Of a stretch of 64,000 bases of DNA, positions 1 through 44,414 are shown in pieces. How positions within the stretch are numbered: the first letter of the stretch is position 1; each line of letters begins with the position of its first letter. The stretch lies in the NCBI GenBank assembly GCA_963402885.1, contig OY727093.1:18646161-18710160 (forward strand), in the 5' to 3' direction. The translations under genes were made by a program, and so were the position numbers. Under the pieces are notes generated by a model that did no database searches, was not told the origin of the DNA, and was given only the letters and a program-made list of their open reading frames with translations. This DNA is from Antedon bifida. Lineage: Eukaryota; Echinodermata; Crinoidea; Comatulida; Antedonidae.

Positions 1-34
1 GTTATGTTGTGTTTCCATGTATCAAATCGACAAT

Positions 35-38
35 AAAA
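35..38 (-). terminator. Pol III oligo-T terminator of copy 1
   Basis: Twelve bases after the discriminator base the minus strand reads TTTT, a minimal Pol III terminator. Across the array this site has three functional forms: TTTT (plus-strand aataaaac), TTTTT (caaaaacc) and TTTTTTT (caaaaaaac). It has two weak forms with no run of four T (aataacac, and the taaacct type). Confidence 0.85.
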
Positions 39-50
39 CTATAACATGTT

Positions 51-122
51 TGCGTCGGCCGGGAATCGAACCCGGGACAATTGCTTGGAAGGCAACTATG
101 TTAACCACTACACCACCGACGC
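51..122 (-). tRNA. tRNA-Gly(UCC), consensus copy (copy 1)
   Basis: Reading the minus strand, a full cloverleaf forms. The 7-bp acceptor stem is GCGTCGG with CCGACGC, followed by discriminator A. There is a D arm with GTGGTT loop residues, an anticodon stem GTTGC/GCAAT with loop CTTCCAA, and a T stem CCGGG/CCCGG with loop TTCGATT. The anticodon TCC lies at 87-89 and reads GGA and possibly GGG. C35 and C36, the main glycine identity bases, are present. CCA is not encoded, as expected for a nuclear gene. The sequence closely follows the general metazoan tRNA-Gly(UCC). Most of the other 113 copies match it or differ by one or two bases. Confidence 0.96.
62..115 (-). promoter_or_regulatory. Internal Pol III promoter (A box and B box) of copy 1
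   Basis: The A box TGGTGTAGTGG lies at 105-115 and the B box GGTTCGATTCC at 62-72, both on the minus strand and both matching the Pol III type 2 consensus (TRGYNNARNNG and GGTTCGANTCC). These bind TFIIIC. No TATA-like box is evident in the ~43 bp upstream of the tRNA 5' end. The same two boxes recur in most units, making the array a very dense run of potential TFIIIC sites. Confidence 0.9.
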
Positions 123-1008
123 ACGGATTACAATGGAGTTATGTTGTGTTTCCATGTATCAAATCGACAATAAAACTATAACATGTTTGCGTCGGCCGGG
201 AATCGAACCCGGGACAATTGCTTGGAAGGCAACTATGTTAACCACTACACCACCGACGCACGCATTACAATGGAGTTATGTTGTGTTTCCATGGATCAAA
301 TCGACAATAAAACTATAACATGTTTGCGTCGGCCGGGAATCGAACCAGGGACAATTGCTTGGAAGGCAACTATGTTAACCACTACACCACCGATGCACGG
401 ATTACAATGGAGTTATGTTGTGTTTCTACAGATCAAATCGACAATAAAACTATAACATGTTTGCGTCGGCCGGGAATCGAACCCGGGACAATTGCTTGGA
501 AGGCAACTATGTTAACCACTACACCACCGACGCACGCATTACAATGGAGTTATGTTGTGTTTCCATGTATCAAATCGACAATAAAACTATAACATGTTTG
601 CGTCGGCCGGGAATCGAACCCGGGACAATTGCTTGGAAGGCAACTATGTTAACCACTACACCACCGACGCACGCTTTACAATGGAGGTATGTTGTGTTTC
701 TACGGATCAAATCGACAATAAAACTTTGAAATGCTTGCGTCGGCCGGGAATCGAACCAGGGACAATTGCTTGGAAGGAAACTATGTTAACCACTACACCA
801 CCGATGCACGGATTACAATGGAGTTATGTTGTGTTTCTACAGATCAAATCGACAATAAAACTATAACATGTTTGCGTCGGCCGGGAATCGAACCCGGGAC
901 AATTGCTTGGAAGGCAACTATGTTAACCACTACACCACCGACGCACGCATTACAATGGAGTTATGTTGTGTTTCCATGGATCAAATCGACAAAAAACTTT
1001 GAAATGCT

Positions 1009-1080
1009 TCCGTCGGCCGGGAATCGAACCCGGGACAATTGCTTGGAAGGCAACTATGTTAACCACTACACCACCGACGC
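1009..1080 (-). tRNA. tRNA-Gly(UCC) variant with broken first acceptor pair (copy 8)
   Basis: The 3' strand of the acceptor ends CCGACGG instead of CCGACGC, so base pair 1-72 becomes G-G. The same change occurs in the copies starting at 2106 and 6763. The latter two are paralogous through the large block duplication. The rest of the cloverleaf and the TCC anticodon are intact, so it may still be expressed but could be processed or charged poorly. Confidence 0.8.
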
Positions 1081-2377
1081 ACGCTTTACAATGGAGGTAT
1101 GTTGTGTTTCTACGGATCAAATCGACAATAAAACTTTGAAATGCTTGCGTCGGCCGGGAATCGAACCCGGGACAATTGTTTGGAAGGCAACTACGGTAAC
1201 CACTACACCACCGACGCACGCATTACAATGGAGTTATGTTGTGTTTCCATGGATCAAATCGACAATAAAACTATAACATGTTTGCGTCGGCCGGGAATCG
1301 AACCAGGGACAATTGCTTGGAAGGCAACTATGTTAACCACTACACCACCGACGCACGGATTACAATGGAGTTATGTTGTGTTTCTACGGATCAAATCGAC
1401 AATAAAACTTTGAAATGCTTGCGTCGGCCGGGAATCGAACCCGGGACAATTGCTTGGAAGGCAACTATGTTAACCACTACACCACCGACGCACGGATTAC
1501 AATGGAGTTATGTTGTGTTTCTACGGATCAAATCGACAATAAAACTTTTAAATGCTTGCGTCGGCCGGGAATCGAACCCGGGACACTTGCTTGGAAGGCA
1601 ACTATGTTAACCACTACACCACCGACGCACGTATTACAATGGAATTATGTTGTGTTTCCATGGATCAAATCGACAATAAAACTATAACATGTTTGCGTCG
1701 GCCGGGAATCGAATCCGGGACAATTGCTTGGAAGGCAACTATGTTAACCACTACACCATCGACGCACGGATTACAATGGAGTTATGCTGTGTTTCCATGG
1801 ATCAAATCGACTAATAAACCTTTGAAATGTTTGTGTCGGCCGGGAATCGAACCCGGGATAATTGCTTGGAAGGCAACTATGTTAACCACTACACCACCGA
1901 CGCACGCATTACAACCGAGTTATGTTGTGTTTCTAAGGATCAAATCGACAAAAAAACTTTGAAATGCTTGCGTCGGCCGGGAATCGAACCCGGGACAATT
2001 GCTTGGAAGGCAACTATGTTAACCACTACACCACCGACGCACGCTTTACAATGGAGTTATGTTGTGTTTCCATGGATCAAATCGACAAAAAAACTTTGAA
2101 ATGCTTCCGTCGGCCGGGAATCGAACCCGGGACAATTGCTTGGAAGGCAACTATGTTAACCACTACACCACCGACGCACGCATTACAATGGAGTTATGTT
2201 GTGTTTCCATGGATCAAATCGACAATAAAACTATAACATGTTTGCGTCGGCCGGGAATCGAACCCGGGACAATTGCTTGGAAGGCAACTATGTTAACCCC
2301 TACACCATCGACGCACGGATTACAATGGAGTTATTGTGTTTCTACGGATCAAATCGACAATAAAACTTTAAAATGCT

Positions 2378-2449
2378 TGCGTCGGCCAGGAATCGAACCC
2401 GGGACAATTGCTTAGAAGGCAACTATGTTAACCACTACACCACCGACGC
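2378..2449 (-). tRNA. tRNA-Gly body with UCU (Arg-type) anticodon (copy 18)
   Basis: The anticodon loop reads CTTCTAA, so position 36 changes from C to T and the anticodon becomes TCT (2414-2416), which would pair with AGA arginine codons. The T stem also carries a G-U wobble. Acceptor, D arm and promoter boxes are otherwise those of the glycine family. This is a direct sequence observation. Whether the RNA is made or charged is unknown. Loss of C36 should weaken recognition by glycyl-tRNA synthetase. Confidence 0.85.
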
Positions 2450-2513
2450 ACGGATTACAATGGAGTTATGTTGTGTTTCCATGGATCAAATCGACAAAAA
2501 CCTTTGAAATGTT

Positions 2514-2585
2514 TGCTTCGGCCGAGAATCGAACCCGGGACAATTGCTTGGAAGGCAACTATGTTAACCACTACACCACCGACGC
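2514..2585 (-). tRNA. tRNA-Gly(UCC) variant, acceptor mismatch (copy 19)
   Basis: The 3' acceptor strand reads CCGAAGC, giving a G-A mismatch at the third pair, and the T stem has one G-U wobble. The copy at 7171-7242 has the same changes. The anticodon TCC is intact and the terminator is TTTTT. Confidence 0.75.
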
Positions 2586-4020
2586 ACGCATTACAACCGA
2601 GTTATGTTGTGTTTCTACGGATCAAATCGACAAAAAAACTTTGAAATGCTTGCGTCGGCCGGGAATCGAACCCGGGACAATTGCTTGGAAGGCAACTATG
2701 TTAACCACTACACCACCGATGCACGGATTACAATGGAGTTATGTTGTGTTTCTACGGATGAAATCGACAATAAAACTTTTAAATGCTTGCGTCGGCCGGG
2801 AATCGAACCCGGGACAATTGCTTGGAAGGCAACTATGTTAACCACTACACCACCGACGCACGCATTACAACCGAGTTATGTTGTGTTTCTACGGATCAAA
2901 TCGACAAAAAAACTTTGAAATGCTTGCGTCGGCCGGGAATCGAACCCGGGATAATTGCTTGGAAGGCAACTATGTTAACCACTACACCACCGACGCACGC
3001 ATTACAACCGAGTTATGTTGTGTTTCTACGGATCAAAACGACAAAAAAACTTTGAAATGCTTGCGTCGGCCGGGAATCGAACCCGGGACAATTGCTTGGA
3101 AGGCAACTATGTTAACCACTACACCACCGACGCACGGATTACAATGGAGTTATGTTGTGTTTCTACGGATCAAATCGACAATAAAACTTTTAAATGCTTG
3201 CGTCGGCCGGGAATCGAACCCGGGACAATTGCTTGGAAGGCAACTATGTTAACCACTACACCACCGACGCACGTATTACAATGGAATTATGTTGTGTTTC
3301 CATGGATCAAATCGACAAAAAAACTTTGAAATGCTTGCGTCGGCCGGGAATCGAACCCGGGACAATTGCTTGGAAGGCAACTATGTTAACCACTACACCA
3401 CCGACGCACGGATTACAATGGAGTTATGTTGTGTTTCCATGGATCAAAACGACAAAAAAACTTTGAAATGCTTGCGTCGGCCGGGAATCGAACCCGGGAC
3501 AATTGCTTGGAAGGCAACTATGTTAACCACTACACCACCGACGCACGGATTACATTGGAGTTATGTTGTGTTTCTACGGATCAAATCGACAATAAAACTT
3601 TTAAATGCTTGCGTCGGCCGGGAATCGAACCCGGGACAATTGCTTGGAAGGCAACTATGTTAACCACTACACCACCGACGCACGTATTACAATGGAATTA
3701 TGTTGTGTTTCCATGGATCAAATCGACAAAAAAACTTTGAAATGCTTGCGTCGGCCGGGAATCGAACCCGGGACAATTGCTTGGAAGGCAACTATGTTAA
3801 CCACTACACCACCGACGCACGCTTTACAATGGAGTTATGTTGTGTTTCCATGGATCAAATCGACAAAAAAACTTTGAAATGCTTGCGTCGGCCGGGAATC
3901 GAACCCGGGACAATTGCTTGGAAGGCAACTATGTTAACCAGTACACCACCGACGCACGGATTACAATGGAGTTATGTTGTGTTTCTACGGATCAAATCGA
4001 CAATAACACTTTGAAATGCT

Positions 4021-4092
4021 TGCGTCGGCCGGGAATCGAATCTGGGACAATTGCTTGGAAGGCAACTATGCTAACCACTACACCACCGACGC
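4021..4092 (-). tRNA. Degenerate tRNA-Gly(UCC), altered B box and no T4 terminator (copy 30)
   Basis: The B box begins GATTCGA instead of GGTTCGA and the T stem is mismatched. The trailer reads AAAGTGTTATTG with no TTTT run. The copy at 8815-8886 is its duplicate. This copy is probably poorly transcribed or would read through. Confidence 0.7.
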
Positions 4093-4431
4093 ACGTATTA
4101 CAATGGAATTATGTTGTGTTTCCATGGATCAAATCGACAATAAAACTATAACATGTTTGCGTCGGCCGGGAACCGAACCCGGGACAATTGCTTGGAAGGC
4201 AACTATGTTAACCACTACACCACCGACGCACGGATTACAATGGAGTTATGTTGTGTTTCTGCGGATCAAATCGACAATAAAACTTTGAAATGCTTGCGTC
4301 GGCCGGGAATCGAACCCGGGACAATTGCTTGGAAGGCAACTATGTTAACCACTACACCACCGACGCACGCATTACAACCGAGTTATGTTGTGTTTCTACG
4401 GATCAAATCGACAAAAAAACTTTGAAATGCT

Positions 4432-4504
4432 TGCGTCGGTCGGGAATCGAACACGGGACAATTGCTTGGAAGGCAACTATGTTAAACCACTACACCACCG
4501 ACGC
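4432..4504 (-). tRNA. tRNA-Gly(UCC) variant, one-base D-loop insertion, altered B box (copy 33)
   Basis: The gene is 73 bp because of an extra T in the D loop (GGTTTAAC). The B box starts TGTTCGA. Copies at 9365-9437 and 12107-12179 carry the same pair of changes and mark the three-fold repeat of this segment. D loops vary in length in real tRNAs, so the insertion alone need not inactivate it. Confidence 0.7.
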
Positions 4505-6217
4505 ACGGATTACAATGGAGTTATGTTGTGTTTCTACGGATCAAATCGACAATAACACTTTGAAATGCTTGCGTCGGCCGGGAATCGAACCTGGGACAAT
4601 TGCTTGGAAGGCAACTATGCTAACCACTACACCACCGACGCACGGATTACAATGGAGTTATGTTGGGTTTTTCTACGGATCAAATTGACAATAAAACTTT
4701 TAAATGCCTGCGTCGGCCGGGAATCGAACCCGGGACAATTGCTTGGAAGGCAACTATGTTAACCACTACACCACAGACGCACGCTTTACAATGGAGTTAT
4801 GTTGTGTTTCCATGGATCAAATCGACAAAAAAACTTTGAAATGCTTGCGTCGGCCGGGAATCGAACCCGGGACAATTGCTTGGAAGGCAACTATGTTAAC
4901 CACTACACCACCGACGCACGGATTACAATGGAGTTATGTTGTGTTTCTACGGATCAAATCGACAATAACACTTTGAAATGCTTGCGTCGGCCGGGAATCG
5001 AACCTGGGACAATTGCTTGGAAGGCAACTATGCTAACCACTACACCACCGACGCACGGATTACAATGGAGTTATGTTGGGTTTTTCTACGGATCAAATCG
5101 ACAATAAAACTTTTAAATGCTTGCGTCGGCCGGGAATCGAACCCGGGACAATTGCTTGGAAGGCAACTATGTTAACCACTACACCACCGACGCACGTATT
5201 ACAATGGAATTATGTTGTGTTTCCATGGATCAAATCGACAATAAAACTATAACATGTTTGCGTCGGCCGGGAATCGAACCCGGGACAATTGCTTGGAAGG
5301 CAACTATGTTAACCACTACACCATCGACGCACGGATTACAATGGAGTTATGCTGTGTTTCCATGGATCAAATCGACTAATAAACCTTTGAAATGTTTGTG
5401 TCGGCCGGGAATCGAACCCGGGACAATTGCTTGGAAGGCAACTATGTTAACCACTACACCACCGACGCACGCATTACAACCGAGTTATGTTGTGTTTCTA
5501 CGGATCAAATCGACAATAAAACTATAACATTTTTGCGTCGGCCGGGAATCGAACCCGGGACAATTGCTTGGAAGGCAACTATGTTAACCACTACACCACC
5601 GACGCACGGATTACAATGTAGTTATGTTGTGTTTCTACGGATCAAATCGACAATAAAACTTTGAAATGCTTGCGTCGGCCGGGAATCGAACCCGGGACAA
5701 TTGCTTGGAAGGCAACTATGTTAACCACTACACCACCGACGCACGCATTACAATGGAGTTATGTTGTGTTTCCATGGATCAAATCGACAATAAAACTATA
5801 ACATTTTTGCGTCGGCCGGGAATCGAACCAGGGACAATTGCTTGGAAGGCAACTATGTTAACCACTACACCACCGACGCACGGATTACAATGGAGTTATG
5901 TTGTGTTTCTACGGATCAAATCGACAATAAAACTTTGAAATGCTTGCGTCGGGCGGTAATCGAACCCGGGACAATTGCTTGGAAGGCAACTATGTTAACC
6001 ACTACACCACCGACGCACGGATTACAATGGAGTTATGTTGTGTTTCTACGGATCAAATCGACAATAAAACTTTGAAATGCTTGCGTCGGCCGGGAATCGA
6101 ACACGGGACAATTGTTTGGAAGGCAACTATGTTAACCCCTACACCATCGACGCACGGATTACAATGGAGTTATGTTGTGTTTCTACGGATCAAATCGACA
6201 AAAACCTTTGAAATGTT

Positions 6218-6285
6218 TGCGTCGGCCGAGAATCGAACCCGGGACAATTGCTTGGAAGGCAACTATGTTAACCACTACACGACGC
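6218..6285 (-). pseudogene. tRNA-Gly pseudogene, 4-bp deletion in acceptor/A box (copy 46)
   Basis: Four bases are missing at the junction of the 5' acceptor strand and the A box, so the 5' strand reads GCGTCGTGTAG. The acceptor stem can no longer close fully. The duplicate copy at 11151-11218 has the same deletion. Both also share an altered T stem. Confidence 0.85.
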
Positions 6286-7034
6286 ACGCATTACAATTGA
6301 GTTATGTTGTGTTTCTACGGATCAAATCGACAATAAAACTTTGAAATGCTTGCGTCGGCCGGGAATCGAACCCGGGACAATTGCTTGGAAGGCAACTATG
6401 TTAACCACTACACCATCGACGCACGGATTACAATGGAGTTATGCTGTGTTTCCATGGATCAAATCGACTAATAAACCTTTGAAATGTTTGCGTCGGCCGG
6501 GAATCGAACCCGGGACAATTGCTTGGAAGGCAACTATGTTAACCACTACACCACCGACGCACGCATTACAATGGAGTTATGTTGTGTTTCTACGGATCAA
6601 ATCGACAATAAAACTTTGAAATGCTTGCGTCGGCCGAGAATCGAAGCCGGGACAATTGCTTGGAAGGCAACTATGTTAACCACTACACCACCGACGCACG
6701 CTTTACAATGGAGTTATGTTGTGTTTCCATGGATCAAATCGACAAAAAAACTTTGAAATGCTTCCGTCGGCCGGGAATCGAACCCGGGACAATTGCTTGG
6801 AAGGCAACTATGTTAACCACTACACCACCGACGCACGCATTACAATGGAGTTATGTTGTGTTTCCATGGATCAAATCGACAATAAAACTATAACATGTTT
6901 GCGTCGGCCGGGAATCGAACCCGGGACAATTGCTTGGAAGGCAACTATGTTAACCCCTACACCATCGACGCACGGATTACAATGGAGTTATTGTGTTTCT
7001 ACGGATCAAATCGACAATAAAACTTTAAAATGCT

Positions 7035-7106
7035 TGCGTCGGCCAGGAATCGAACCCGGGACAATTGCTTAGAAGGCAACTATGTTAACCACTACACCAC
7101 CGACGC
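7035..7106 (-). tRNA. tRNA-Gly body with UCU (Arg-type) anticodon (copy 52)
   Basis: This is the duplicate of the copy at 2378-2449 within the second large block, offset by 4657 bp. It has the same TCT anticodon (7071-7073) and the same T-stem wobble. The variant therefore arose before the block duplication and was copied with it. Confidence 0.85.
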
Positions 7107-10100
7107 ACGGATTACAATGGAGTTATGTTGTGTTTCCATGGATCAAATCGACAAAAACCTTTGAAATGTTTGCTTCGGCCGAGAATCGAACCCGGGACAA
7201 TTGCTTGGAAGGCAACTATGTTAACCACTACACCACCGACGCACGCATTACAACCGAGTTATGTTGTGTTTCTACGGATCAAATCGACAAAAAAACTTTG
7301 AAATGCTTGCGTCGGCCGGGAATCGAACCCGGGACAATTGCTTGGAAGGCAACTATGTTAACCACTACACCACCGATGCACGGATTACAATGGAGTTATG
7401 TTGTGTTTCTACGGATCAAATCGACAATAAAACTTTTAAATGCTTGCGTCGGCCGGGAATCGAACCCGGGACAATTGCTTGGAAGGCAACTATGTTAACC
7501 ACTACACCACCGACGCACGCATTACAACCGAGTTATGTTGTGTTTCTACGGATCAAATCGACAAAAAAACTTTGAAATGCTTGCGTCGGCCGGGAATCGA
7601 ACCCGGGATAATTGCTTGGAAGGCAACTATGTTAACCACTACACCACCGACGCACGCATTACAACCGAGTTATGTTGTGTTTCTACGGATCAAAACGACA
7701 AAAAAACTTTGAAATGCTTGCGTCGGCCGGGAATCGAACCCGGGACAATTGCTTGGAAGGCAACTATGTTAACCACTACACCACCGACGCACGGATTACA
7801 ATGGAGTTATGTTGTGTTTCTACGGATCAAATCGACAATAAAACTTTTAAATGCTTGCGTCGGCCGGGAATCGAACCCGGGACAATTGCTTGGAAGGCAA
7901 CTATGTTAACCACTACACCACCGGCGCACGTATTACAATGGAATTATGTTGTGTTTCCATGGATCAAATCGACAAAAAAACTTTGAAATGCTTGCGTCGG
8001 CCGGGAATCGAACCCGGGACAATTGCTTGGAAGGCAACTATGTTAACCACTACACCACCGACGCACGGATTACAATGGAGTTATGTTGTGTTTCCATGGA
8101 TCAAATCGACAATAAAACTATAACATGTTTGTGTCGGCCGGGAATCGAACCCGGGATAATTGCTTGGAAGGCAACTATGTTAACCACTACACCACCGACG
8201 CACGCATTACAACCGAGTTATGTTGTGTTTCTACGGATCAAAACGACAAAAAAACTTTGAAATGCTTGCGTCGGCCGGGAATCGAACCCGGGACAATTGC
8301 TTGGAAGGCAACTATGTTAACCACTACACCACCGACGCACGGATTACATTGGAGTTATGTTGTGTTTCTACGGATCAAATCGACAATAAAACTTTTAAAT
8401 GCTTGCGTCGGCCGGGAATCGAACCCGGGACAATTGCTTGGAAGGCAACTATGTTAACCACTACACCACCGACGCACGTATTACAATGGAATTATGTTGT
8501 GTTTCCATGGATCAAATCGACAAAAAAACTTTGAAATGCTTGCGTCGGCCGGGAATCGAACCCGGGACAATTGCTTGGAAGGCAACTATGTTAACCACTA
8601 CACCACCGACGCACGCTTTACAATGGAGTTATGTTGTGTTTCCATGGATCAAATCGACAAAAAAACTTTGAAATGCTTGCGTCGGCCGGGAATCGAACCC
8701 GGGACAATTGCTTGGAAGGCAACTATGTTAACCACTACACCACCGACGCACGGATTACAATGGAGTTATGTTGTGTTTCTACGGATCAAATCGACAATAA
8801 CACTTTGAAATGCTTGCGTCGGCCGGGAATCGAATCTGGGACAATTGCTTGGAAGGCAACTATGCTAACCACTACACCACCGACGCACGGATTACAATGG
8901 AGTTATGTTGGGTTTTTCTACGGATCAAATCGACAATAAAACTTTTAAATGCTTGCGTCGGCCGGGAATCGAACCCGGGACAATTGCTTGGAAGGCAACT
9001 ATGTTAACCACTACACCACCGACGCACGTATTACAATGGAATTATGTTGTGTTTCCATGGATCAAATCGACAATAAAACTATAACATGTTTGCGTCGGCC
9101 GGGAATCGAACCCGGGACAATTGCTTGGAAGGCAACTATGTTAACCACTACACCACCGACGCACGGATTACAATGGAGTTATGTTGTGTTTCTACGGATC
9201 AAATCGACAATAAAACTTTGAAATGCTTGCGTCGGCCGGGAATCGAACCCGGGACAATTGCTTGGAAGGCAACTATGTTAACCACTACACCACCGACGCA
9301 CGCATTACAACCGAGTTATGTTGTGTTTCTACGGATCAAATCGACAAAAAAACTTTGAAATGCTTGCGTCGGTCGGGAATCGAACACGGGACAATTGCTT
9401 GGAAGGCAACTATGTTAAACCACTACACCACCGACGCACGGATTACAATGGAGTTATGTTGTGTTTCTACGGATCAAATCGACAATAACACTTTGAAATG
9501 CTTGCGTCGGCCGGGAATCGAACCTGGGACAATTGCTTGGAAGGCAACTATGCTAACCACTACACCACCGACGCACGGATTACAATGGAGTTATGTTGGG
9601 TTTTTCTACGGATCAAATTGACAATAAAACTTTTAAATGCCTGCGTCGGCCGGGAATCGAACCCGGGACAATTGCTTGGAAGGCAACTATGTTAACCACT
9701 ACACCACCGACGCACGCTTTACAATGGAGTTATGTTGTGTTTCCATGGATCAAATCGACAAAAAAACTTTGAAATGCTTGCGTCGGCCGGGAATCGAACC
9801 CGGGACAATTGCTTGGAAGGCAACTATGTTAACCACTACACCACCGACGCACGGATTACAATGGAGTTATGTTGTGTTTCTACGGATCAAATCGACAATA
9901 ACACTTTGAAATGCTTGCGTCGGCCGGGAATCGAACCTGGGACAATTGCTTGGAAGGCAACTATGCTAACCACTACACCACCGACGCACGGATTACAATG
10001 GAGTTATGTTGGGTTTTTCTACGGATCAAATCGACAATAAAACTTTTAAATGCTTGCGTCGGCCGGGAATCGAACCCGGGACAATTGCTTGGAAGGCAAC

Positions 10101-11150
10101 TATGTTAACCACTACACCACCGACGCACGTATTACAATGGAATTATGTTGTGTTTCCATGGATCAAATCGACAATAAAACTATAACATGTTTGCGTCGGC
10201 CGGGAATCGAACCCGGGACAATTGCTTGGAAGGCAACTATGTTAACCACTACACCATCGACGCACGGATTACAATGGAGTTATGCTGTGTTTCCATGGAT
10301 CAAATCGACTAATAAACCTTTGAAATGTTTGTGTCGGCCGGGAATCGAACCCGGGACAATTGCTTGGAAGGCAACTATGTTAACCACTACACCACCGACG
10401 CACGCATTACAACCGAGTTATGTTGTGTTTCTACGGATCAAATCGACAATAAAACTATAACATTTTTGCGTCGGCCGGGAATCGAACCCGGGACAATTGC
10501 TTGGAAGGCAACTATGTTAACCACTACACCACCGACGCACGGATTACAATGTAGTTATGTTGTGTTTCTACGGATCAAATCGACAATAAAACTTTGAAAT
10601 GCTTGCGTCGGCCGGGAATCGAACCCGGGACAATTGCTTGGAAGGCAACTATGTTAACCACTACACCACCGACGCACGCATTACAATGGAGTTATGTTGT
10701 GTTTCCATGGATCAAATCGACAATAAAACTATAACATTTTTGCGTCGGCCGGGAATCGAACCAGGGACAATTGCTTGGAAGGCAACTATGTTAACCACTA
10801 CACCACCGACGCACGGATTACAATGGAGTTATGTTGTGTTTCTACGGATCAAATCGACAATAAAACTTTGAAATGCTTGCGTCGGCCGGTAATCGAACCC
10901 GGGACAATTGCTTGGAAGGCAACTATGTTAACCACTACACCACCGACGCACGGATTACAATGGAGTTATGTTGTGTTTCTACGGATCAAATCGACAATAA
11001 AACTTTGAAATGCTTGCGTCGGCCGGGAATCGAACACGGGACAATTGCTTGGAAGGCAACTATGTTAACCCCTACACCATCGACGCACGGATTACAATGG
11101 AGTTATGTTGTGTTTCTACGGATCAAATCGACAAAAACCTTTGAAATGTT

Positions 11151-11218
11151 TGCGTCGGCCGAGAATCGAACCCGGGACAATTGCTTGGAAGGCAACTATG
11201 TTAACCACTACACGACGC
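11151..11218 (-). pseudogene. tRNA-Gly pseudogene, 4-bp deletion (copy 82)
   Basis: This is the block-duplicated partner of the pseudogene at 6218-6285, offset by 4933 bp, with the same deletion. It is useful as a marker of the block duplication. Confidence 0.85.
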
Positions 11219-11558
11219 ACGCATTACAATTGAGTTATGTTGTGTTTCTACGGATCAAATCGACAATAAAACTTTGAAATGCTTGCGTCGGCCGGGAATC
11301 GAACCCGGGACAATTGCTTGGAAGGCAACTATGTTAACCACTACACCATCGACGCACGGATTACAATGGAGTTATGCTGTGTTTCCATGGATCAAATCGA
11401 CTAATAAACCTTTGAAATGTTTGCGTCGGCCGGGAATCGAACCCGGGACAATTGCTTGGAAGGCAACTATGTTAACCACTACACCACCGACGCACGCATT
11501 ACAATGGAGTTATGTTGTGTTTCTACGGATCAAATCGACAATAAAACTTTGAAATGCT

Positions 11559-11630
11559 TGCGTCGGCCGAGAATCGAAGCCGGGACAATTGCTTGGAAGG
11601 CAACTATGTTAACCACTACACCACCGACGC
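11559..11630 (-). tRNA. Degenerate tRNA-Gly(UCC), altered B box (copy 85)
   Basis: The B box reads GCTTCGATTC instead of GGTTCGATTC, so the T loop loses its conserved T54. Copies at 6626, 11696 and 11970 share it. Three of these four lie within 500 bp of each other, which shows local spread of a degenerate unit. Confidence 0.7.
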
Positions 11631-12101
11631 ACGCATTACAATGGAGTTATGTTGTGTTTCTACTGATCAAATCGACAATAAAACTTTGAAATGCTTGCGT
11701 CGGCCGAGAATCGAAGCCGGGACAATTGCTTGGAAGGCAACTATGTTAACCACTACACCACCGACGCACGCATTACAACCGAGTTATGTTGTGTTTCTAC
11801 GGATCAAATCGACAAAAAAACTTTGAAATGGTTGCGTCGACCGGGAATCGAACACGGGGCAATTGCTTGGAAGGCAACTATGTTAACCACTACACCACCG
11901 ACGCACGCATTACAATGGAGTTATGTTGTGTTTCTACGGATCAAATCGACAATAAAACTTTGAAATGCTTGCGTCGGCCGAGAATCGAAGCCGGGACAAT
12001 TGCTTGGAAGGCAACTATGTTAACCACTACACCACCGACGCACGCATTACAACCGAGTTATGTTGTGTTTCTACGGATCAAATCGATAAAAAAACTTTGA
12101 A

Positions 12102-13202
12102 ATGCTTGCGTCGGTCGGGAATCGAACACGGGACAATTGCTTGGAAGGCAACTATGTTAAACCACTACACCACCGACGCACGGATTACAATGGAGTTATG
12201 TTGTGTTTCTACGGATCAAATCGACAATAACACTTTGAAATGCTTGCGTCGGCCGGGAATCGAACCTGGGATAATTGCTTGGAAGGCAACTATGCTAACC
12301 ACTACACCACCGACGCACGGATTACAATGGAGTTATGTTGGGTTTTTCTACGGATCAAATTGACAATAAAACTTTTAAATGCTTGCGTCGGCCGGGAATC
12401 GAACCCGGGACAATTGCTTGGAAGGCAACTATGTTAACCACTACACCACCGACGCACGCTTTACAATGGAGTTATGTTGTGTTTCCATGGATCAAATCGA
12501 CAAAAAAACTTTGAAATGCTTGCGTCGGCCGGGAATCGAACCCGGGACAATTGCTTGGAAGCAACTATGTTAACCACTACACCACCGACGCACGGATTAC
12601 AATGGAGTTATGTTGTGTTTCTACGGATCAAATCGACAATAACACTTTGAAATGCTTGCGTCGGCCGGGAATCGAACCTGGGACAATTGCTTGGAAGGCA
12701 ACTATGCTAACCACTACACCACCGACGCACGGATTACAATGGAGTTATGTTGGGTTTTTCTACGGATCAAATCGACAATAAAACTTTTAAATGCTTGCGT
12801 CGGCCGGGAATCGAACCCGGGACAATTGCTTGGAAGGCAACTATGTTAACCACTACACCACCGACGCACGTATTACAATGGAATTATGTTGTGTTTCCAT
12901 GGATCAAATCGACAATAAAACTATAACATGTTTGCGTCGGCCGGGAATCGAACCCGGAACAATTGCTTGGAAGGCAACTATGTTAACCACTACACCATCG
13001 ACGCACGGATTACAATGGAGTTATGCTGTGTTTCCATGGATCAAATCGACTAATAAACCTTTGAAATGTTTGTGTCGGCCAGGAATCGAACCCGGGACAA
13101 TTGCTTGGAAGGCAACTATGTTAACCACTACACCACCGACGCACGCATTACAACCGAGTTATGTTGTGTTTCTACGGATCAAATCGACAAAAAAACTTTG
13201 AA
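12102..13202 (-). repeat. Third copy of an eight-unit segment of the tRNA array
   Basis: Units 12102 to about 13202 match 9360-10461 (offset 2742, then 2741) and 4427-5528. They include the D-loop insertion copy, the units with a GGGTTTTTC spacer and the terminator-poor copies. Confidence 0.8.
12521..12591 (-). pseudogene. tRNA-Gly pseudogene, anticodon-arm deletion (copy 92)
   Basis: One base is lost at the anticodon stem-loop junction (TTGCTTCC instead of TTGCCTTCC), leaving a six-base loop. The equivalent copies at 4846 and 9779 are intact, so the loss is specific to the third copy of this segment and is recent. Confidence 0.75.
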
Positions 13203-13614
13203 ATGCTTGCGTCGGCCGGGAATCGAACCCGGGACAATTGCTTGGAAGGCAACTATGTTAACCACTACACCACCGACGCACGGATTACAATGTAGTTATG
13301 TTGTGTTTCTACGGATCAAATCGACAATAAACCTTTGAAATGTTTGCGTCGGCCGGGAATCGAACCCGGGACAATTGCTTGGAAGGCAACTATGTTAACC
13401 ACTACACCACCGACGCACGGATTACAATGGAGTTATGTTGTGTTTCCATGGATCAAATTGACAAAAAAACTTTGAAATGCTTGCGTCGGCCGGGAATCGA
13501 ACCAGGGACAATTGCTTGGAAGGCAACTATGTTAACCACTACACCACCGAAGCACGGATTACAATGGAGTTATGCTGTGTTTCCATGGATCAAATCGACT
13601 AATAAACCTTTGAA

Positions 13615-14984
13615 ATGTTTGCGTCGGCCGGGAATCGAACCCGGGACAATTGCTTGGAAGGCAACTATGTTAACCACTACACCACCGACGCACGCATTAC
13701 AACCGAGTTATGTTGTGTTTCTACGGATCAAATCGACAAAAAAACTTTGAAATGCTTGCGTCGGCCGGGAATCGAACCCGGGACAATTGCTCGGAAGGCA
13801 ACTATGTTAACCACTACACCACCGACGCACGGATTACAATGGAGTTATGTTGTGTTTCTACTGATCAAATCGACAATAAAATTTTGAAATGCTTGCGTCG
13901 GCCGGGAATCGAACCCGGGACAATTGCTTGGAAGGCAACTATGTTAACCACTACACCACCGACGCACGCATTACAATGGAGTTATGTTGTGTTTCCATGG
14001 ATCAAATCGACAATAAAACTATAACATGTTTGCGTCGGCCGGGAATCGAACCCGGGACAATTGCTTGGAAGGCAACTATGTTAACCACTACACCACCGAC
14101 GCACGGATTACAATGGAGTTATGTTGTGTTTCTACGGATCAAATCGACAATAAAACTTTTAAATGCTTGCGTCGGCCGGGAATCGAACCCGGGACAATTG
14201 CTTGGAAGGCAACTATGTTAACCACTACACCACCGACGCACGTATTACAATGGAGTTATGTTGTGTTTCTACGGATCAAATCGACAATAAAACTTTTAAA
14301 TGCTTGCGTCGGCCGGGAATCGAACCCGGGACAATTGCTTGGAAGGCAACTATGTTAACCACTACACCACCGACGCACGCATTACAACCGAGTTATGTTG
14401 TGTTTCTACGGATCAAATCGACAAAAAAACTTTGAAATGCTTGCGTCGGCCGGGAATCGAACCCGGGACAATTGCTTGGAAGGCAACTATGTTAACCACT
14501 ACACCACCGACGCACGGATTACAATGGAGTTATGTTGTGTTTCTACTGATCAAATCGACAATAAAATTTTGAAATGCTTGCGTCGGCCGGGAATCGAACC
14601 CGGGACAATTGCTTGGAAGGCAACTATGTTAACCACTACACCACCGACGCACGCATTACAATGGAGTTATGTTGTGTTTCCATGGATCAAATCGACAATA
14701 AAACTATAACATGTTTGCGTCGGCCGGGAATCGAACCCGGGACAATTGCTTGGAAGGCAACTATGTTAACCACTACACCACCGACGCACGGATTACAATG
14801 GAGTTATGTTGTGTTTCTACGGATCAAATCGACAATAAAACTTTTAAATGCTTGCGTCGGCCGGGAATCGAACCCGGGACAATTGCTTGGAAGGCAACTA
14901 TGTTAACCACTACACCACCGACGCACGTATTACAATGGAGTTATGTTGTGTTTCTACGGATCAAATCGACAATAAAACTTTTAA
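13615..14984 (-). repeat. Recent five-unit (685-bp) tandem duplication in the tRNA array
   Basis: 13615-14299 and 14300-14984 are near identical at an exact offset of 685 bp (five units). The shared markers are an ACTGATCAA spacer and an AAAATTTTG trailer. The copy at 13757 has one change next to the anticodon (A37 to G) that its partner lacks, so the duplication is young. Confidence 0.82.
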
Positions 14985-15539
14985 ATGCTTGCGTCGGCCG
15001 GGAATCGAACCCGGGACAATTGCTTGGAAGGCAACTATGTTAACCACTACACCACCGACGCACGCATTACAACCGAGTTATGTTGTGTTTCTACGGATCA
15101 AATCGACAAAAAAACTTTGAAATGCTTGCGTCGGCCGGGAATCGAACCCGGGACAATTGCTTGGAAGGCAACTATGTTAACCACTACACCACCGACGCAC
15201 GGATTACAATGGAGTTATGTTGTGTTTCCATGGATCAAATCGAATAATAAACCTTTGAAATGTTTGCGTCGGCCGGGAATCGAACCCGGGACCATTGCTT
15301 GGAAGGCAACTATGTTAACCACTACACCACCGACGGACGCATTACAATGGAGTTATGTTGTGTTTCCATGGATCAAATCGACTAATAAACCTTTGAAATG
15401 TTTGCGTCTGCCGGGAATCGAACCCGGGACAATTGCTTGGAAGGCAGCTATGTTAACCACTACACCACCGACGCACGTATTACAATGGAGTTATGTTGTG
15501 TTTCTACGGATCAAATCGACAATAAAACTATAACATGTT

Positions 15540-15611
15540 TGCGTCGGCCGGGAATCGAACCCGGGACAATTGCTTGGAAGGCAACTATGTTAACCACTAC
15601 ACCACCGACGC
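15540..15611 (-). tRNA. tRNA-Gly(UCC), outermost copy at the right array border (copy 114)
   Basis: Cloverleaf, TCC anticodon, A and B boxes and TTTT trailer are all consensus. The spacer on its 5' side runs to about 15668 and then stops abruptly in unrelated AT-rich sequence. The outermost unit is therefore intact rather than decayed, unlike the usual edge of old satellite arrays. Confidence 0.92.
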
Positions 15612-15718
15612 ACGGATTACAATGGAGTTATGTTGTGTTTCTATGGATCAATTCGACAATAAAACTATTAAAATTGACTAATTATTTTAATATTTAATTA
15701 TTTTTTAAAACAACTCAC

Positions 15719-15883
15719 CTTTTTCACGAGGATTGTAAGCCCTTGGTATTTGAATGGCTTTGAGAAATCAATGTGTTTTACTCGTTCCTTATTAATAGTT
15801 AATGGTGCCACTATAATATCAGCTTTGCCGTCTAACATTTCTCCTATCATACCGTTCCATCGTCTCTCTGTCGAGTTAGGTAC
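15719..15883 (-). CDS. grin1: NMDA receptor GluN1-like subunit, coding exon 8 (S1 end of ligand-binding domain)
   Basis: 165 bp, 55 codons, phase 0 at both ends, with AG acceptor and GTGAGT donor. It covers residues ~476-530 of the predicted protein. It contains [27 protein letters not shown] and [16 protein letters not shown], a near match to vertebrate GluN1. The proline, threonine and arginine that bind the glycine carboxylate and amino groups in GluN1 (APLTIN..R) are present. This is the last GluN1 exon in the window. The following exon (linker to M1) should lie left of base 1, which puts the tRNA array in the intervening intron. Confidence 0.93.
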
Positions 15884-16243: not shown

Positions 16244-16362
16244 CCTCACTAAGTCACCATATTGTCCATCGGCTACAACATGGAGGTCAAAGGTGAAATT
16301 CAAAAAGTTTGAAAGATTTGCGAGTAGGTCGATACAAAATCCTTTACAGCACAATAAGTCAC
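16244..16362 (-). CDS. grin1: GluN1-like subunit, coding exon 7
   Basis: 119 bp with GTTTTAG acceptor and GTAATT donor, entered with one base carried over and leaving in phase 0. Residues ~436-475 include CCKGFCIDLLANL and HVVADGQYGDLVR, matching CCYGFCIDLLIKLA and HLVADGKFGTQ of GluN1. The glycine-site phenylalanine of GKFG is replaced by tyrosine, a conservative change. It was found by translating the gap between exons 6 and 8 and confirmed by phase continuity. Confidence 0.92.
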
Positions 16363-16858
16363 CTAAAACAAAAATAAACACACAATGTAAAATATTCTAA
16401 CAACATTCATATGCTTTAACAGCCAGTCTGATCATCATGGACCAATCCCATGTTTACCAGCGGCCAGCTACACCACCACCGAAACTAATTCAAGGAAACA
16501 ACTAACAAACGATAGAGGGCACTCCGAGTTTCTAAGATAATGTTCTTAAGAATACCCGTATACCGCTATAGCAAACTTTAACGTGAAATTAAAGTTACAT
16601 TTCCTATATTTAGTCATCAGTCTGATAACATTTTGTACCACACCGTTTTATAGAAACTATAGATCGATAATTACTGGAATGCATGATCAATATAATGTTT
16701 TTCCCGCACCTGGCGTTTAATATCAAAACAATCAAACAATGTTTGTAAAATGAACAGCACCGATAATATGTATTACCTATTAATAAATTCACAAATGAAA
16801 GCATGCACAACGGGAGGTTACAATTTGTATAAGGCTCTTTAAATGGAATCTTTACCGA

Positions 16859-17010: not shown

Positions 17011-17068
17011 AACTTATATCCATTATCAATCACAACATTGTGTTACCTTTATAAAGGATTAAACTAAC

Positions 17069-17171
17069 CTGTTTTGCCGTCAGAGCATGTGAAACCACCT
17101 TGATCATCACATCCATTCACTGGGTGTGGCTTATCAGTGTATACAAAAGGCACACTTTTTACTGTTACCAC
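17069..17171 (-). CDS. grin1: GluN1-like subunit, coding exon 6 (start of S1, cysteine loop)
   Basis: 103 bp with TTGTAG acceptor and GTTAGT donor, entering in phase 0 and leaving one base over. It encodes VVTVKSVPFVYTDKP followed by a cysteine-bearing loop, matching the KIVTIHQEPFVYVKP start of GluN1 S1. The two loop cysteines are kept, but the segment up to the CC pair is about 17 residues shorter than in rat GluN1. Confidence 0.9.
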
Positions 17172-18588: not shown

Positions 18589-19906
18589 TGTCACAAGTGA
18601 CATAAAGTTGTGTATATATTTTGCAAGTCATTCTTACTTTTCCTTTTGTTTTCACTATTTGAACCTTTCTTTTGTTTTAGGAAGCTATTGTGTGAAGCCA
18701 GTGGAGCAGAGTTTTTGTGTTGCAGAGAAGGATTGTGTGGTGTTTGCTGATTGGAGGAGAGGTATAAGAGTTAAGTTAGTGTGTGAGTTGCTGATTGGTG
18801 GAGAAGGATAAGGTGGTGATATGTGGATAATTGAGGGAATTTTGAGGTAGATGGAAATTGAGAGGAGACAGAGAAGGAGGGCTATGTTATGTTAAGCCAG
18901 AAAGGGATAGGTGAATATTGATATGAGAAACTAAGACGTACAGGAGAAGAAGTAATTGAATTATGGTGATATAGAGCTGAAGCAGAAAGGAAATAAAGAG
19001 ATATACATGAAGTTAATAAATTGTGAGTTGGAGATAATTATGGTGATATAGAGCTGAAGCAGAAAGGAAATAAAGTGATATACATGAAGTTAATAAATTG
19101 TGAGTTGGAAGTAATACTATAAGGCTGTACTTAAATGTAGAACTGTTAATTGTTGAGATTACTGAGGATTAATTAAAATTGTGAATGTAAATTGACGGAA
19201 GAAATAACTGTTGGAAACAGCAGAAGTTGTTGCATGTAAAGAATTGTTGGGAAATATTGAAGAGTAACTGGATTGATACTGATATTATTTTACGTGGAAA
19301 AGGAGAAAGAAATAATTGGTCGGGGAGCGGATTGCAGTGCAGAACGACATCAAGAAACATTTTAACTTTATATTTGATTTATTTATATGTCAGAAAATAG
19401 GAAGAATTATAATTGATAAGACAAGCAGAACGGGAGCAGAGGCGTGGGAGTTGTTTAGTTGCAGAATCGTTGTAACTTTTATCTTTCTAATTTGTTTTTG
19501 TGTCAGCGTAGGAGAGAAGGCAAGAAGGAACGATATTGTGGACATTTATTATTGTCTAATTATTCATCTTGTGATATTATTGTATTTGAAAGGGGGGTTT
19601 CGGGGATTTATTTAAAAATAAGAAGATTGTTGATATTTTGTTTGGAAGGATTGGGAAATTTGGGGAATTGCATAAAGTTTGTGGGGAATAGGTATACGGT
19701 ATCATTGTTTGAGAATTGGTTGGGTTTTTTTTTGTGGGTTTTTTTTTTGGGGTTTGAATTATAAAAGAAAGAATTGGTTGTCAAAGATTACTATTAAATT
19801 TTACTTTTTACATTTATATGTGTACAGTTGTGGCTATTTACCGTTGTTCATCGTTGGTTACCGGCAATTACATGTCCGAAAGAGCCGTAATTGCGGCTGT
19901 GTGACA
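18589..19906 (+). repeat. 5' LTR
   Basis: 1318 bp beginning TGTCAC and ending GTGACA, a perfect 6-bp inverted end. It contains a tandem duplication of about 75 bp near 18958-19110 (shared by the 3' LTR). Confidence 0.93.
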
Positions 19907-19910
19907 TTTA

Positions 19911-19927
19911 TGGGGGCTCGTCCGGGA
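19911..19927 (+). other. Primer-binding site, tRNA-Pro type
   Basis: TGGGGGCTCGTCCGGGA, four bases after the LTR end, matches the tRNA-Pro primer site known from murine leukaemia-type retroviruses over 17 positions. The neighbouring tRNA-Gly array is therefore not the primer source. Confidence 0.85.
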
Positions 19928-20072
19928 AACTTTGTAACCTAGCGTGAACATTGGTAGATGAAACAATTGTACGTGATTCTTGGATTGTCTATTTGCCATA
20001 TTATTGGCATACTGTATACTTATATTGGATACTTATATATATATATATATATTTTTTTGTTTTTCTTAAGAA

Positions 20073-24719: not shown

Positions 24720-24766
24720 ATAGGACCCGTCACGGTATGGAGAAAATGTTGATACATTATTCTTTT

Positions 24767-24779
24767 AGAGGGGAGTAAA
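24767..24779 (+). other. Polypurine tract
   Basis: AGAGGGGAGTAAA lies directly before the TGTCAC start of the 3' LTR, as expected for the plus-strand primer. Confidence 0.85.
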
Positions 24780-26097: not shown

Positions 26098-26102
26098 TAT
26101 GC

Positions 26103-30355: not shown

Positions 30356-31150
30356 TTCGGCCTTAGGCCTATAAAAGGTCATATTATGAATAATATTTTT
30401 ATATTAAAATGACCTTGGTAAAATACTGTAATGGGGGTTTTCAACAAAATGATTTTAATGGATAAGATATTATTAATTTACTTCAATACATTGGACAAAT
30501 TACTAAAGCAACCATTTCACATTGGATTTGGATGTTGCTTTATCGAAGTTCTACAGTATGTATGCTAGGCTATGTGTTTTGAAATAACACGTTAGCGCAG
30601 ATAATATTATAAAATCCATATTTTTTCTTGCGATGAATATATTTAATATGTGTTTCATATATTTACATACTGTCACAAGTCGCAAGTCCTTGGTACAAAA
30701 AAATAGTGAAATCCATACAAAAATATTGTAGGCCTATGTTGTACAGTATTTATTTGGCTACCAAAATCGAAAATGAAATGCGTTATCCATGCGCCATATC
30801 TATATGCAATATTGCCTACAGGGCAAACAAAGCCCTAGAGATTGAATGTATCTCTCTATCGATGAATATATTCAACATATTTTATAACTGTCATCTAAGC
30901 CGTCATATAGCAATCTTATGTGGATAATTACTTTCATACACCCTGGTAAAGAGAATGCACACAACACATAGAAAGTGTATTAAGTTTTCCTAGCGTTGAC
31001 ATTGCGCACCAGAGTAGATGAAAATAATATCGCGAACTAACACCAGCACGTCTCATACACATTCAGTAAGTGATGACTAATAACCTATTACATTATAGCA
31101 CTCGTTACTAAATACTTTACCCGATTATAGCACTAGTAACTATACTTTAC

Positions 31151-31539
31151 CCGATCATCAAATAGATTAGAGCGGGTTACTATATCCACAACAGGTATCT
31201 CTAACGAACCGATGATGTTTGATATGCTCATGGCACTCAGACGGTTGGGCCTGGACAAACACATAATAAGTGCGGCCACTTTCTTAGGTACAATCCTTTG
31301 ACAAAGTTCCATAGTTGCATTTAAAGGATTGTCAGTAAAGATGCTAGAAACACCGGTTAGAGTTACTCCTCTAGGAAGAGCGTGGTTCTTGTTTTGGTTG
31401 ATATTACGAATTGCTTTGTGGAAATCATCGCGGTCCTTCTTAGATTCAAACGCACCACCGATGACAAAGGGTGTCTGTGAAGTTACTATCGGCATAATGA
31501 AAAAGACTAGAACAATTTGTACTTTAATCCAACACATTC
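31151..31539 (-). CDS. grin1: GluN1-like subunit, coding exon 1 (signal peptide and amino-terminal domain)
   Basis: The coding part runs from ATG at 31537 down to 31151 (129 codons, phase 0 at the donor GTAAAG). The frame also has an ATG at 31558. A good polypyrimidine-AG acceptor (ATTCTTACAG) ends at 31540 between the two, so I take the inner ATG and expect an upstream non-coding exon. Residues 1-21 (MCWIKVQIVLVFFIMPIVTSQ) form a signal peptide. The mature start TPFVIGG matches the NIGAV start of GluN1. The segment IIGSLEIPVVDIVTRSNL matches YRIPVLGLTTRMS. The eight exons together give about 530 residues, the expected position in GluN1 for the final LTILVKK. Confidence 0.88.
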
Positions 31540-31558
31540 CTGTAAGAATAAAATACAA

Positions 31559-32027
31559 TTTAGTCTGTGTTACTAATGTTACATTCTCTAGGCCTATATA
31601 TTACAGTATGTCGATATTGGACTAATACGGTTTTACGGTTCAAACTATAAAATGTATTTTTGTTTTACATACACAACACTGATTTACATGCTGAAATGTA
31701 TTTTAGGAGAGAAAACGTTAATTTCTGTTGTTTATCATTTTTTTCGGTTAGTGGATCCTTTAAAAATGCACGTTTTTTAATGTTATATTGAGTTAGTTGC
31801 CAGGTTACACAGCTGACATTAATGAGATTGTATTTCTAAGAGAACAACGCATGCGCTGGGCTCTGATGTTTTTCTTAATTTCTACTATTTTATTGTATTT
31901 GTAAAATTATCAGGCTATTTTTTCCTCAATATATGCCTGTATTCACTTAATCCAACAATAATGCCTCTCAATTCTGGTAACCAGTCTTAATTGGTTTATT
32001 CGGCCATTCAACTTCATATTTTCTTCA
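31559..32027. other. Probable 5' intron or upstream region of the GluN1-like gene
   Basis: AT-rich, non-coding. The expected non-coding first exon and promoter were not located. Confidence 0.4.
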
Positions 32028-43942: not shown

Positions 43943-44414
43943 GTTAGTTAGTTCATTCATTTAATCAAAATGTATATAAAAAATGTATCTATATATTTGT
44001 TGAAATTGAGAGTTATTGTACCCTAAATGTTGTCAGAGTTTAGTATGCACACAATGGTGACATTGTAAGATGCGGTCAAACAGAAAGCAGGCAATCGTTT
44101 GCGGTCAACCAGAAAGCATACAATTTGTGAACCTCATGTCTATTATGTTAAGATGAGATATGTAAAGGGTGTGATGTGTGCTGATTAGTCAGACTATATA
44201 ATGACATATTCTCTTGACTACACAACTGTACCTAATACCAATATTCAGACATCAATTGAACAAACAATTGATTTTTAAAATTTAAAATATTTAGGAGCTT
44301 CCAAAATTTTCCTACAATAATTTGCATTTGATGCTGAAAGATTTATGGTATGTTTTTAAATTGTTTTATTACAAATTGAATTGATTAAAATCATAAATCA
44401 GTTGTTATTTTTAG

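Follow-up and report, generated by a model that had tools for sequence, protein, structure and literature searches.

In the accessible text of one survey, homogeneous tDNA clusters are described as genes for the same amino acid lying within 1 kb of each other and for the most part parallel; Nematostella and teleosts are reported to have clusters with fifty members or more, and adjacent pairs in Nematostella and zebrafish are mostly heterogeneous (PMC2888827). Entamoeba carries its tRNA genes in long tandem arrays, for which the available part of the report gives no clear pseudogene copies, and has dispersed genes too; the units hold up to 5 tRNA genes, some also 5S, and are interspersed with STRs in E. 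histolytica and E. dispar (PMC2652664). Among plants, the excerpts available describe the Pro (27) and SYY clusters of Arabidopsis, an Ile cluster (28) of maize and a tRNA-Cys cluster, and a survey of 50 plants with up to 26 identical genes in a run and up to 110 in clusters of non-identical pairs (PMC12652284, PMC10701932, PMC12308677). Clusters in the Drosophila simulans complex are described, in the portion available, as expanding and contracting (PMC7919458). Two further papers, on counts of tRNA genes in the sea urchin, applied to codon bias (PMC3704236) and on monocot tRNA counts (PMC9526063), have in their available parts no bearing on arrays. No tRNA array of a crinoid or any other echinoderm appeared in the titles and abstract openings of the papers listed for tRNA arrays and related terms, a scope that excludes most subscription papers.

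The window, a stretch of 64,000 nucleotides from Antedon bifida, whose genome is also marked as a crinoid's by its mitochondrial COX1, opens with one tandem array of period 137 (114.3 copies, 93% matches with TRF), in which ARAGORN and the Rfam model RF00005 each detected 114 tRNA genes, every one on the minus strand. Such periodicity cannot be chance. The features concerned are:

1..15674, minus strand: in-window part of the tRNA-Gly(UCC) array (TRF, ARAGORN, Rfam; 114 genes, 137-bp unit)
50..123, minus strand: first complete tRNA-Gly(UCC) gene in the window, with the exact modal body (ARAGORN)
15539..15612, minus strand: final tRNA-Gly(UCC) copy of the array; a GluN1 exon lies 106 bp away (ARAGORN)

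The initial annotation had described a 137-bp tRNA-Gly array of at least 114 genes in a single orientation, which agrees with these counts. Its lower bound was well chosen, since the window edge cuts the array within a unit: the complete array in the assembly (C1:18,632,850-18,661,772) measures 28.9 kb and contains 211 tRNA genes on one strand, with 0 N inside. In the window, 82 of 113 start-to-start distances equal 137 bp and all 113 lie at 133-140 bp; in the whole array, 209 of 210 lie at 133-142 bp and the remaining one is 213 bp. Each 137-bp unit consists of one tRNA gene and a plain spacer of 64-65 bp without STR. The covariance model, an Infernal-type check that had been proposed with the annotation, matched 114 of 114 window copies (44.0 to 69.6 bits; gathering score 29) and 97 of 97 upstream copies, so that all 211 exceeded the threshold (44-70.9 bits).

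Neighbouring genes less than 1 kb apart, parallel and for the same amino acid are what is found here, as in the homogeneous clusters surveyed; compared with the mostly heterogeneous pairs of Nematostella and zebrafish in the accessible text, however, the crinoid has 211 copies of one isoacceptor in a 137-bp unit, and several arrays (PMC2888827). The Entamoeba type of unit, with up to 5 tRNA or 5S genes and STRs between, is not found in the crinoid array, which belongs to an animal, has one tRNA per unit and a plain spacer, and lies inside a contig and a gene. As far as the excerpts go, plant clusters resemble it in being tandem genes for the same isoacceptor, with copy numbers that are labile and some clusters silenced, but the unit of the tRNA-Cys cluster is 0.4 kb (PMC12652284, PMC10701932, PMC12308677). 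With the D. simulans complex the crinoid shares clusters of identical isoacceptor genes and, in otherwise intact genes, anticodon shifts towards a different amino acid; the ~300 tRNA genes given there for a whole genome are less than one and a half times the content of this single array (PMC7919458, available part). The human tDNA VNTR at 1q23.3 is likewise a tandem tDNA array of labile copy number, but its 9-43 CTCF-bound units are 7.3 kb long and less than 6% tRNA in the text available, compared with about half of the crinoid unit (PMC4041453); a multi-kilobase unit of that type is absent here. Tandem clusters of a single isoacceptor are known elsewhere; the scale of the array, the spread of such arrays through the genome and the intron-filling position look new.

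That position is within the gene for GluN1 (NMDA receptor subunit 1), where the array occupies 99% of one 29.1-kb intron in sense orientation. Unique GluN1 exons flank it on both sides in collinear order, and the following were located in the window:

15719..15883, minus strand: GluN1 exon directly upstream of the array in the sense of the gene, followed by a GTGAGT donor (splice site judged by eye)
16247..16369, minus strand: probable GluN1 ligand-binding-domain exon (open frame, outside the PDB query; matched by eye to a motif of this domain)
17067..17168, minus strand: probable GluN1 exon (by eye only)
31148..31522, minus strand: GluN1 amino-terminal-domain exon (best PDB match NMDA 1, E 6.4e-06, for the frame 31133-31600, in which Pfam gave no family at E 0.001)

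Tandem arrays are error-prone in assembly, and the array might have been over-expanded or misplaced. Against such an artefact, which we consider highly improbable, stand the 119 distinct units among the 211, the lack of N, the collinear unique exons at both ends and the similar arrays elsewhere in the assembly.

The initial annotation regarded the A and B boxes as intact and the terminators as mostly so, which holds for the majority of copies and fails for the rest. Scored by strict match to the A-box and B-box consensus, the former was present in 205 of 211 copies and the latter in 178; a run of at least four T within 40 nt behind the gene was found in 185. Most of these terminators are weak (4 T ~12 nt behind the gene), unlike those of dispersed Gly(UCC) genes. 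The claim of a single isoacceptor agrees with the anticodons read by ARAGORN over the whole array (197 UCC, 6 UCU, 4 UUC, 3 CCC, 1 unresolved); in the window, 111 copies were typed as Gly(UCC), 2 as Arg(UCU) and 1 as having an anticodon deletion. Thirteen copies have an altered anticodon, 10 of them one for a different amino acid.

The nearly invariant A box and the sense orientation throughout one whole intron could also be expected of an architectural element, in which dense TFIIIC sites serve as an insulator, as a loading site for condensin or cohesin, or as a block that pauses Pol II in GluN1. Few tDNAs are probably enough for a barrier, which counts against this idea, as do the B box, intact in only 178 copies, the conservation of A and B boxes in any tRNA gene and the fact that nothing here sets GluN1 apart from other gene contexts. 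A human tDNA tandem repeat has been implicated as a boundary, according to the part of that report available (PMC4041453). On balance, an architectural role appears very unlikely. The high-output tRNA factory and the TFIIIC barrier suggested by the initial annotation are putative roles of what is a real tandem array of one isoacceptor with conserved internal promoters.

Judging from the alignment of units, long blocks have duplicated recently: duplications of 33, 19 and 10 units carry only 5, 5 and 2 differences, respectively. Within the window (unit numbers converted to coordinates via the ARAGORN gene positions), the relevant features are:

2105..3408, minus strand: 10-unit block that recurs at 6762-8065, a distance of 34 units, with 2 differences in the 10 units
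4157..6698, minus strand: 19-unit block that recurs at 9090-11631, a distance of 36 units or 4933 bp, with 5 differences in the 19 units
2377..2450, minus strand: copy with a UCU anticodon, called tRNA-Arg (ARAGORN)
7034-7107, minus strand: second copy with a UCU anticodon (ARAGORN)

The two UCU copies are 4657 bp apart, which is the offset of the 10-unit duplication. Tandem arrangement, homogenisation and higher-order blocks are thus all found, as in satellite DNA. The array might accordingly be a passive satellite, generated by slippage and unequal exchange in an intron that tolerates length, its tRNAs mostly silent hitch-hikers and their seeming conservation the result of recent homogenising amplification. 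The 137-bp unit length is in keeping with this, and so is the damage: only 75 of 211 copies have the exact modal tRNA body, at least one stem pair is broken in 106, and 31 of 64 distinct tRNA mutations strike pairs, compared with 29.3 ± 3.3 expected at random, so that the mutations are random with respect to stem pairing. Silenced tDNA clusters do exist in Arabidopsis (PMC12308677, available part).

In contrast, mismatch to the consensus was 1.6% in the tRNA and 6.7% in the spacer of this array, and in each of the 8 arrays compared (Gly(UCC) and 7 others, the Phe sample L034 being left out) the tRNA varied less than its spacer. There are also 0 dead units. Of the 64 alleles in the tRNA, 6 fall at positions 8-21 (uncorrected binomial p 0.04). 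The spacer had 16 raw high-frequency alleles and the tRNA 3 (Fisher p 0.005); this shortage in the tRNA was not significant after linked alleles were merged (p 0.07-0.32), and p did not fall below 0.05 in any of the 7 further array samples (0.06-1.0, again leaving out Phe L034). Because the signal fades on merging and is not significant in the other samples, no reliance is placed on this test, the outcome of which is what a passive satellite would give. Among the array copies, transitions were seen at 12 of 20 CpG sites and 28 of 43 other C/G sites, although the flanks of the array are CpG-poor; this lack of CpG excess gives no sign of germline methylation decay. A methylated, silenced array was therefore rejected for the germline, a comparison of limited power as the copies are homogenised, and the crinoid array differs in this respect from the SYY cluster, which the available text describes as highly methylated (PMC12652284, PMC10701932, PMC12308677). 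Taken together, a passive satellite is a possible explanation, although we doubt it. The initial suggestion of runaway satellite amplification fits the broken pairs, the random mutations and the recent duplications; the canonical body, the scores above threshold in every copy and the tRNA/spacer contrast speak for real genes. As to a lack of gene function, the stem-pair and allele tests give indications in both directions.

The modal array body is identical to 6 dispersed Gly(UCC) genes elsewhere in the genome, the flanks of which are unrelated and have T runs close after the gene. All 200 genome matches of a spacer motif fell within this array, and a tRNA-derived SINE or other dispersed repeat was rejected because the motif is confined to this place. 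When the array spacer was compared with other sampled genome stretches, including the flanks of the dispersed genes, no source copy was found, only 10-19-base matches with E 0.47 or worse. A telomeric role is not favored because the Gly(UCC) array sits within a gene, and the sampled arrays lie inside contigs, the nearest 1.2 Mb from a contig end; the intron position speaks against a centromeric role of this array.

The initial annotation treated the Gly(UCC) array as a one-off, but the same genome has short-unit arrays for one amino acid each for Cys, Lys-UUU, Lys-CUU, Leu, Thr, Asn, Phe and Gly-GCC, that is, at least 9 tRNA types including Gly(UCC), besides dispersed genes; a genome of the Entamoeba type would have nearly all of its tRNA genes in arrays. 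This incomplete list, a lower bound, stems from two-B-box pattern searches, among the matches listed; genome-wide, RF00005 was scored for 63 of 30430 first-look candidates. Since the pattern lists include repeats other than tRNA arrays, for example at C1:3.00 Mb and the GGTTCGAACCCAATC... places, pair counts are not array counts. The period-182-212 pattern picks up a dispersed tRNA-like repeat. Arrays of different tRNA types carry different spacers, and such independent arrays make pure accident, as a passive satellite would have it, less attractive. A high demand for glycine tRNA, suggested earlier, is not the first choice because other tRNAs form similar arrays. Nor was there clear support from collagen: in GXY stretches (23, in the loci of 12 of 148 PF01391 matches), GGA and GGT were each used in 251 of 600 cases, and a small control drawn from GluN1 and NXPE frames had GGA at 14 of 44 (Fisher p 0.21).

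The explanation that we put forward, with confidence about evenly balanced, is that a real Pol III gene is being multiplied and kept uniform by unequal exchange, the single copies being nearly neutral and the array as a whole weakly constrained. The starting point would be a normal Pol III gene for tRNA-Gly(UCC), together with its 64-65-bp spacer, which entered the GluN1 intron or arose there; unequal exchange and conversion would then have added head-to-tail copies until ~211 of them filled the intron. Of the intact copies, a considerable fraction would be transcribed by Pol III from their A and B boxes and join the Gly-tRNA pool; selection on the pool would be weak, single copies would drift in anticodon and stems, and homogenisation would keep the consensus canonical. 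The same process may operate at other tRNA loci of this genome. A real gene is indicated because the modal body equals the six dispersed genes, no copy falls below the Rfam threshold and the tRNA varies less than the spacer; the frequent A box and T runs and the few alleles at positions 8-21 add to this. The block duplications, the array-only spacer motif and the CpG transitions, which are not raised, also count in favor of amplification of a real gene. Against it count the broken pairs with their random mutations, the weak terminators, the altered anticodons, the non-significant allele test and the fact that six dispersed genes might suffice. More far-reaching, and unlikely in our estimation, is that the genome keeps much of its tRNA set as short-unit arrays for one amino acid each, resembling Entamoeba but independently reached in an animal, that every array evolves as a single gene with a copy number that tunes an isoacceptor, and that, with at least one array forming a whole intron of a neuronal receptor gene, transcription of GluN1 by Pol II is coupled to that of the glycine tRNA by Pol III.

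It has long been asked whether tRNA genes in very large copy number serve any purpose. In this one genome, several arrays exist side by side with spacers that differ, variants limited to single copies can act as natural barcodes, and the dispersed genes of identical sequence can serve as controls; tRNA sequencing together with Pol III ChIP in one animal could thus tell expressed gene pools from selfish satellite. The position in the GluN1 intron, in turn, is a natural test of interference between Pol II and Pol III.

TRF placed a single 137-bp tandem array in the window (114.3 copies, positions 1-15674), in which ARAGORN and Rfam each found 114 tRNA genes, all 114 on the minus strand; this bears out the initial annotation, which had claimed a tRNA-Gly(UCC) array of at least 114 genes with a 137-bp period. 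The anticodon was Gly(UCC) in 111 of the 114; two were called Arg(UCU), with one anticodon change each, and one had an anticodon deletion. The window's first base cuts through the array, and the full array was mapped by adding 100 kb upstream on the same contig (C1; assembly of 315.6 Mb in 27 contigs), on which the window occupies 18646161-18710160. Over its whole length, ARAGORN counted 197 Gly-UCC, 6 Arg-UCU, 4 Glu-UUC, 3 Gly-CCC and 1 unresolved gene (n = 211), in agreement with the Rfam count (114 in the window and 97 upstream). The array interval contains zero N. Put end to end, the exons on its two sides encode GluN1, the first subunit of the NMDA receptor (NMDA receptor subunit 1), and match solved GluN1 chains at E 7e-133.

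Array and GluN1 exons
C1:18632850-18661772, one strand: whole tRNA-Gly array, 211 tRNAs (ARAGORN)
C1:18632496-18632729: GluN1 exon starting DVPTNTL, bounding the array on one side
Window 15719-15883: GluN1 exon ending GLTILVKK, bounding the array on the other side
Window 31148-31522: GluN1 amino-terminal exon

With splice sites set by eye, the intron measures ~29,149 bp, 99% of which (28,923 bp) is array, and GluN1 and the tRNA genes share a strand. Within the GluN1 gene, on the opposite strand, also lies an LTR retrotransposon (window 18589-26098); its LTRs (1319 bp each) are identical and ATGC repeats flank the element, which indicates a young insertion.

An array spacer motif (up to three mismatches) matched 200 times genome-wide, all 200 in the array; thus, the array unit is present at a single locus. 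The commonest gene sequence of the array (72 nt) was exact in 75 of the 211 copies, and six full-length genes identical to it lie outside, on contigs C7, C9 and C15, with flanks unlike the array spacer and T runs close behind the gene. A gene-derived exact 35-mer had 117 genome matches, 111 of them inside the array. At C9:13.406-13.413 Mb (fetched stretches L020 and L021), near a dispersed Gly(UCC) gene, four genes were called tRNA-Asp(AUC), an unusual anticodon call, three of them spaced 364 bp.

The 211 units comprise 119 distinct sequences. Units 52-84 have a second copy 34 units further (5 differences across 33 units), as do units 113-122 (34 units further, 2 differences) and 128-146 (36 units further, 5 differences). 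Judged by this similarity, the repeated blocks are recent block duplications, of the kind produced by unequal exchange. Exact copies of the commonest gene sequence made up 4 of 35 units at the array's left end, the lowest share, and 17 of 36 at its right end, the highest.

A strict A box was present in 205 of the 211 copies, a strict B box in 178 and a run of at least four T within 40 nt in 185, and 83 copies jointly had the B box, the T run, the UCC anticodon and unbroken pairs. At least one stem pair was broken in 106 copies; 13 had an altered anticodon, of which 3 remain Gly (CCC) and 10 read another amino acid.

Consensus mismatch was 1.6% in the tRNA and 6.7% in the spacer, and the tRNA was the less variable in all seven other array samples compared (4 to 40 units each; the Phe sample, L034, was left out of this comparison and of the allele test). 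Rare alleles were near-equal per site (45 in 72 tRNA sites, 42 in 65 spacer sites). Common alleles were fewer in the tRNA (3 versus 16 in the spacer; p 0.005, unmerged alleles), a shortage that was non-significant after linked alleles were merged (p 0.07-0.32); in the other seven array samples, the same test gave p 0.06 to 1.0. Pair-breaking tRNA mutations were as frequent as expected at random (31 of 64 observed, 29.3 ± 3.3 expected), and tRNA positions 8-21, which contain the A box, held 6 of the 64 mutations, below their share (p 0.04, uncorrected). We read these patterns as suggesting that individual copies are near neutral and the whole array weakly constrained. CpG transitions were not raised (12 of 20 CpG sites versus 28 of 43 other C/G sites), and on our reading of the sequence the array bears no apparent sign of germline methylation.

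Other tRNA arrays were typed by ARAGORN on samples fetched from the same assembly.

Sister arrays (ARAGORN, except the last line)
Lys-UUU: 43 genes in 9 kb, 173-bp period
Cys: 16 genes, with 2 more called Tyr, 137 bp
Leu: 8 AAG and 7 UAG, two samples (L028, L029; C7:23.12-23.32 Mb), 174-194 bp
Thr: 7 AGU and 4 UGU (L030; C8:1.23 Mb), ~152 bp
Asn: 10 genes, two loci, ~150 bp
Gly-GCC: 6 genes, with 1 more called Ser, 138 bp
Phe: 5 genes, ~169 bp
Lys-CUU: 6 genes, ~150 bp
Candidate Lys-CUU-like places, by sequence pattern only: C7:28.41, C12:3.49 and C16:12.75 Mb

The Leu samples mix AAG with UAG and the Thr sample AGU with UGU, whereas altered anticodons in the Gly(UCC) array are few and mostly change the amino acid. 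Genome-wide, a two-B-box pattern with a period of 151-181 bp gave 723 pairs (reversed control, 3), with 95 of the 100 matches listed in the Leu region of C7. At 121-151 bp, two B-box types, both of which miss most of the Gly(UCC) array, gave 187 (control 1) and 54 (control 0). At 182-212 bp there were 396 pairs (control 2), partly a dispersed repeat. Places of such pairs are those among the 100 matches listed per pattern, and some are other repeats. A Gly-GCC motif (up to one mismatch) had 175 genome matches; among the 100 listed, 86 lie at C12:18.555-18.579 Mb and 4 in the Gly(UCC) array. A tRNA-like repeat (GGTTCGAACCCCAGC...), its B box nearly palindromic, is dispersed genome-wide (for example, C1:245493), occurs in pairs ~205 bp apart among the matches listed for 182-212 bp, and is possibly a SINE.

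Elsewhere in the window are three adjoining open frames with a BEL/Pao-type retroelement look by eye (53038-57621, plus strand), two NXPE-family open frames (43367-46258; Pfam PF06312, PF24536) and, by TRF, a CCCACAAATGTGAAAAC-type minisatellite at 58270-58486 and 61228-62260, in opposite orientations ~3 kb apart. In the mitochondrial genome, ND1 has AAA codons at conserved Asn positions and tRNA-Lys has the anticodon CUU, which we take to be the echinoderm-type code. The five best matches of COX1 (table 9 translation) were all crinoid, at 91-93% identity (120 best of 7999 scored), the crinoids being Tropiometra, Metacrinus, Comanthus and Comatulinae.

As far as the portions of the literature compared here extend, same-amino-acid tDNA clusters are found across eukaryotes (PMC2888827). 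Entamoeba has tRNA arrays with mixed units (PMC2652664), plant clusters hold 27 Pro or 28 Ile genes and up to 110 tRNA genes (PMC12652284), and the Arabidopsis SYY cluster is active in root tips and silenced in most tissues (PMC12308677). Drosophila clusters show expansion, contraction and anticodon shifts (PMC7919458), and the human 1q23.3 repeat has a 7.3-kb unit (PMC4041453). These portions describe no system joining a 137-bp unit, more than 200 copies of one isoacceptor, a fully filled intron and many sister arrays. Same-amino-acid tDNA clustering is known; relative to the literature compared, the combination of unit size, copy number, intron filling and sister arrays in A. bifida appears to be new.
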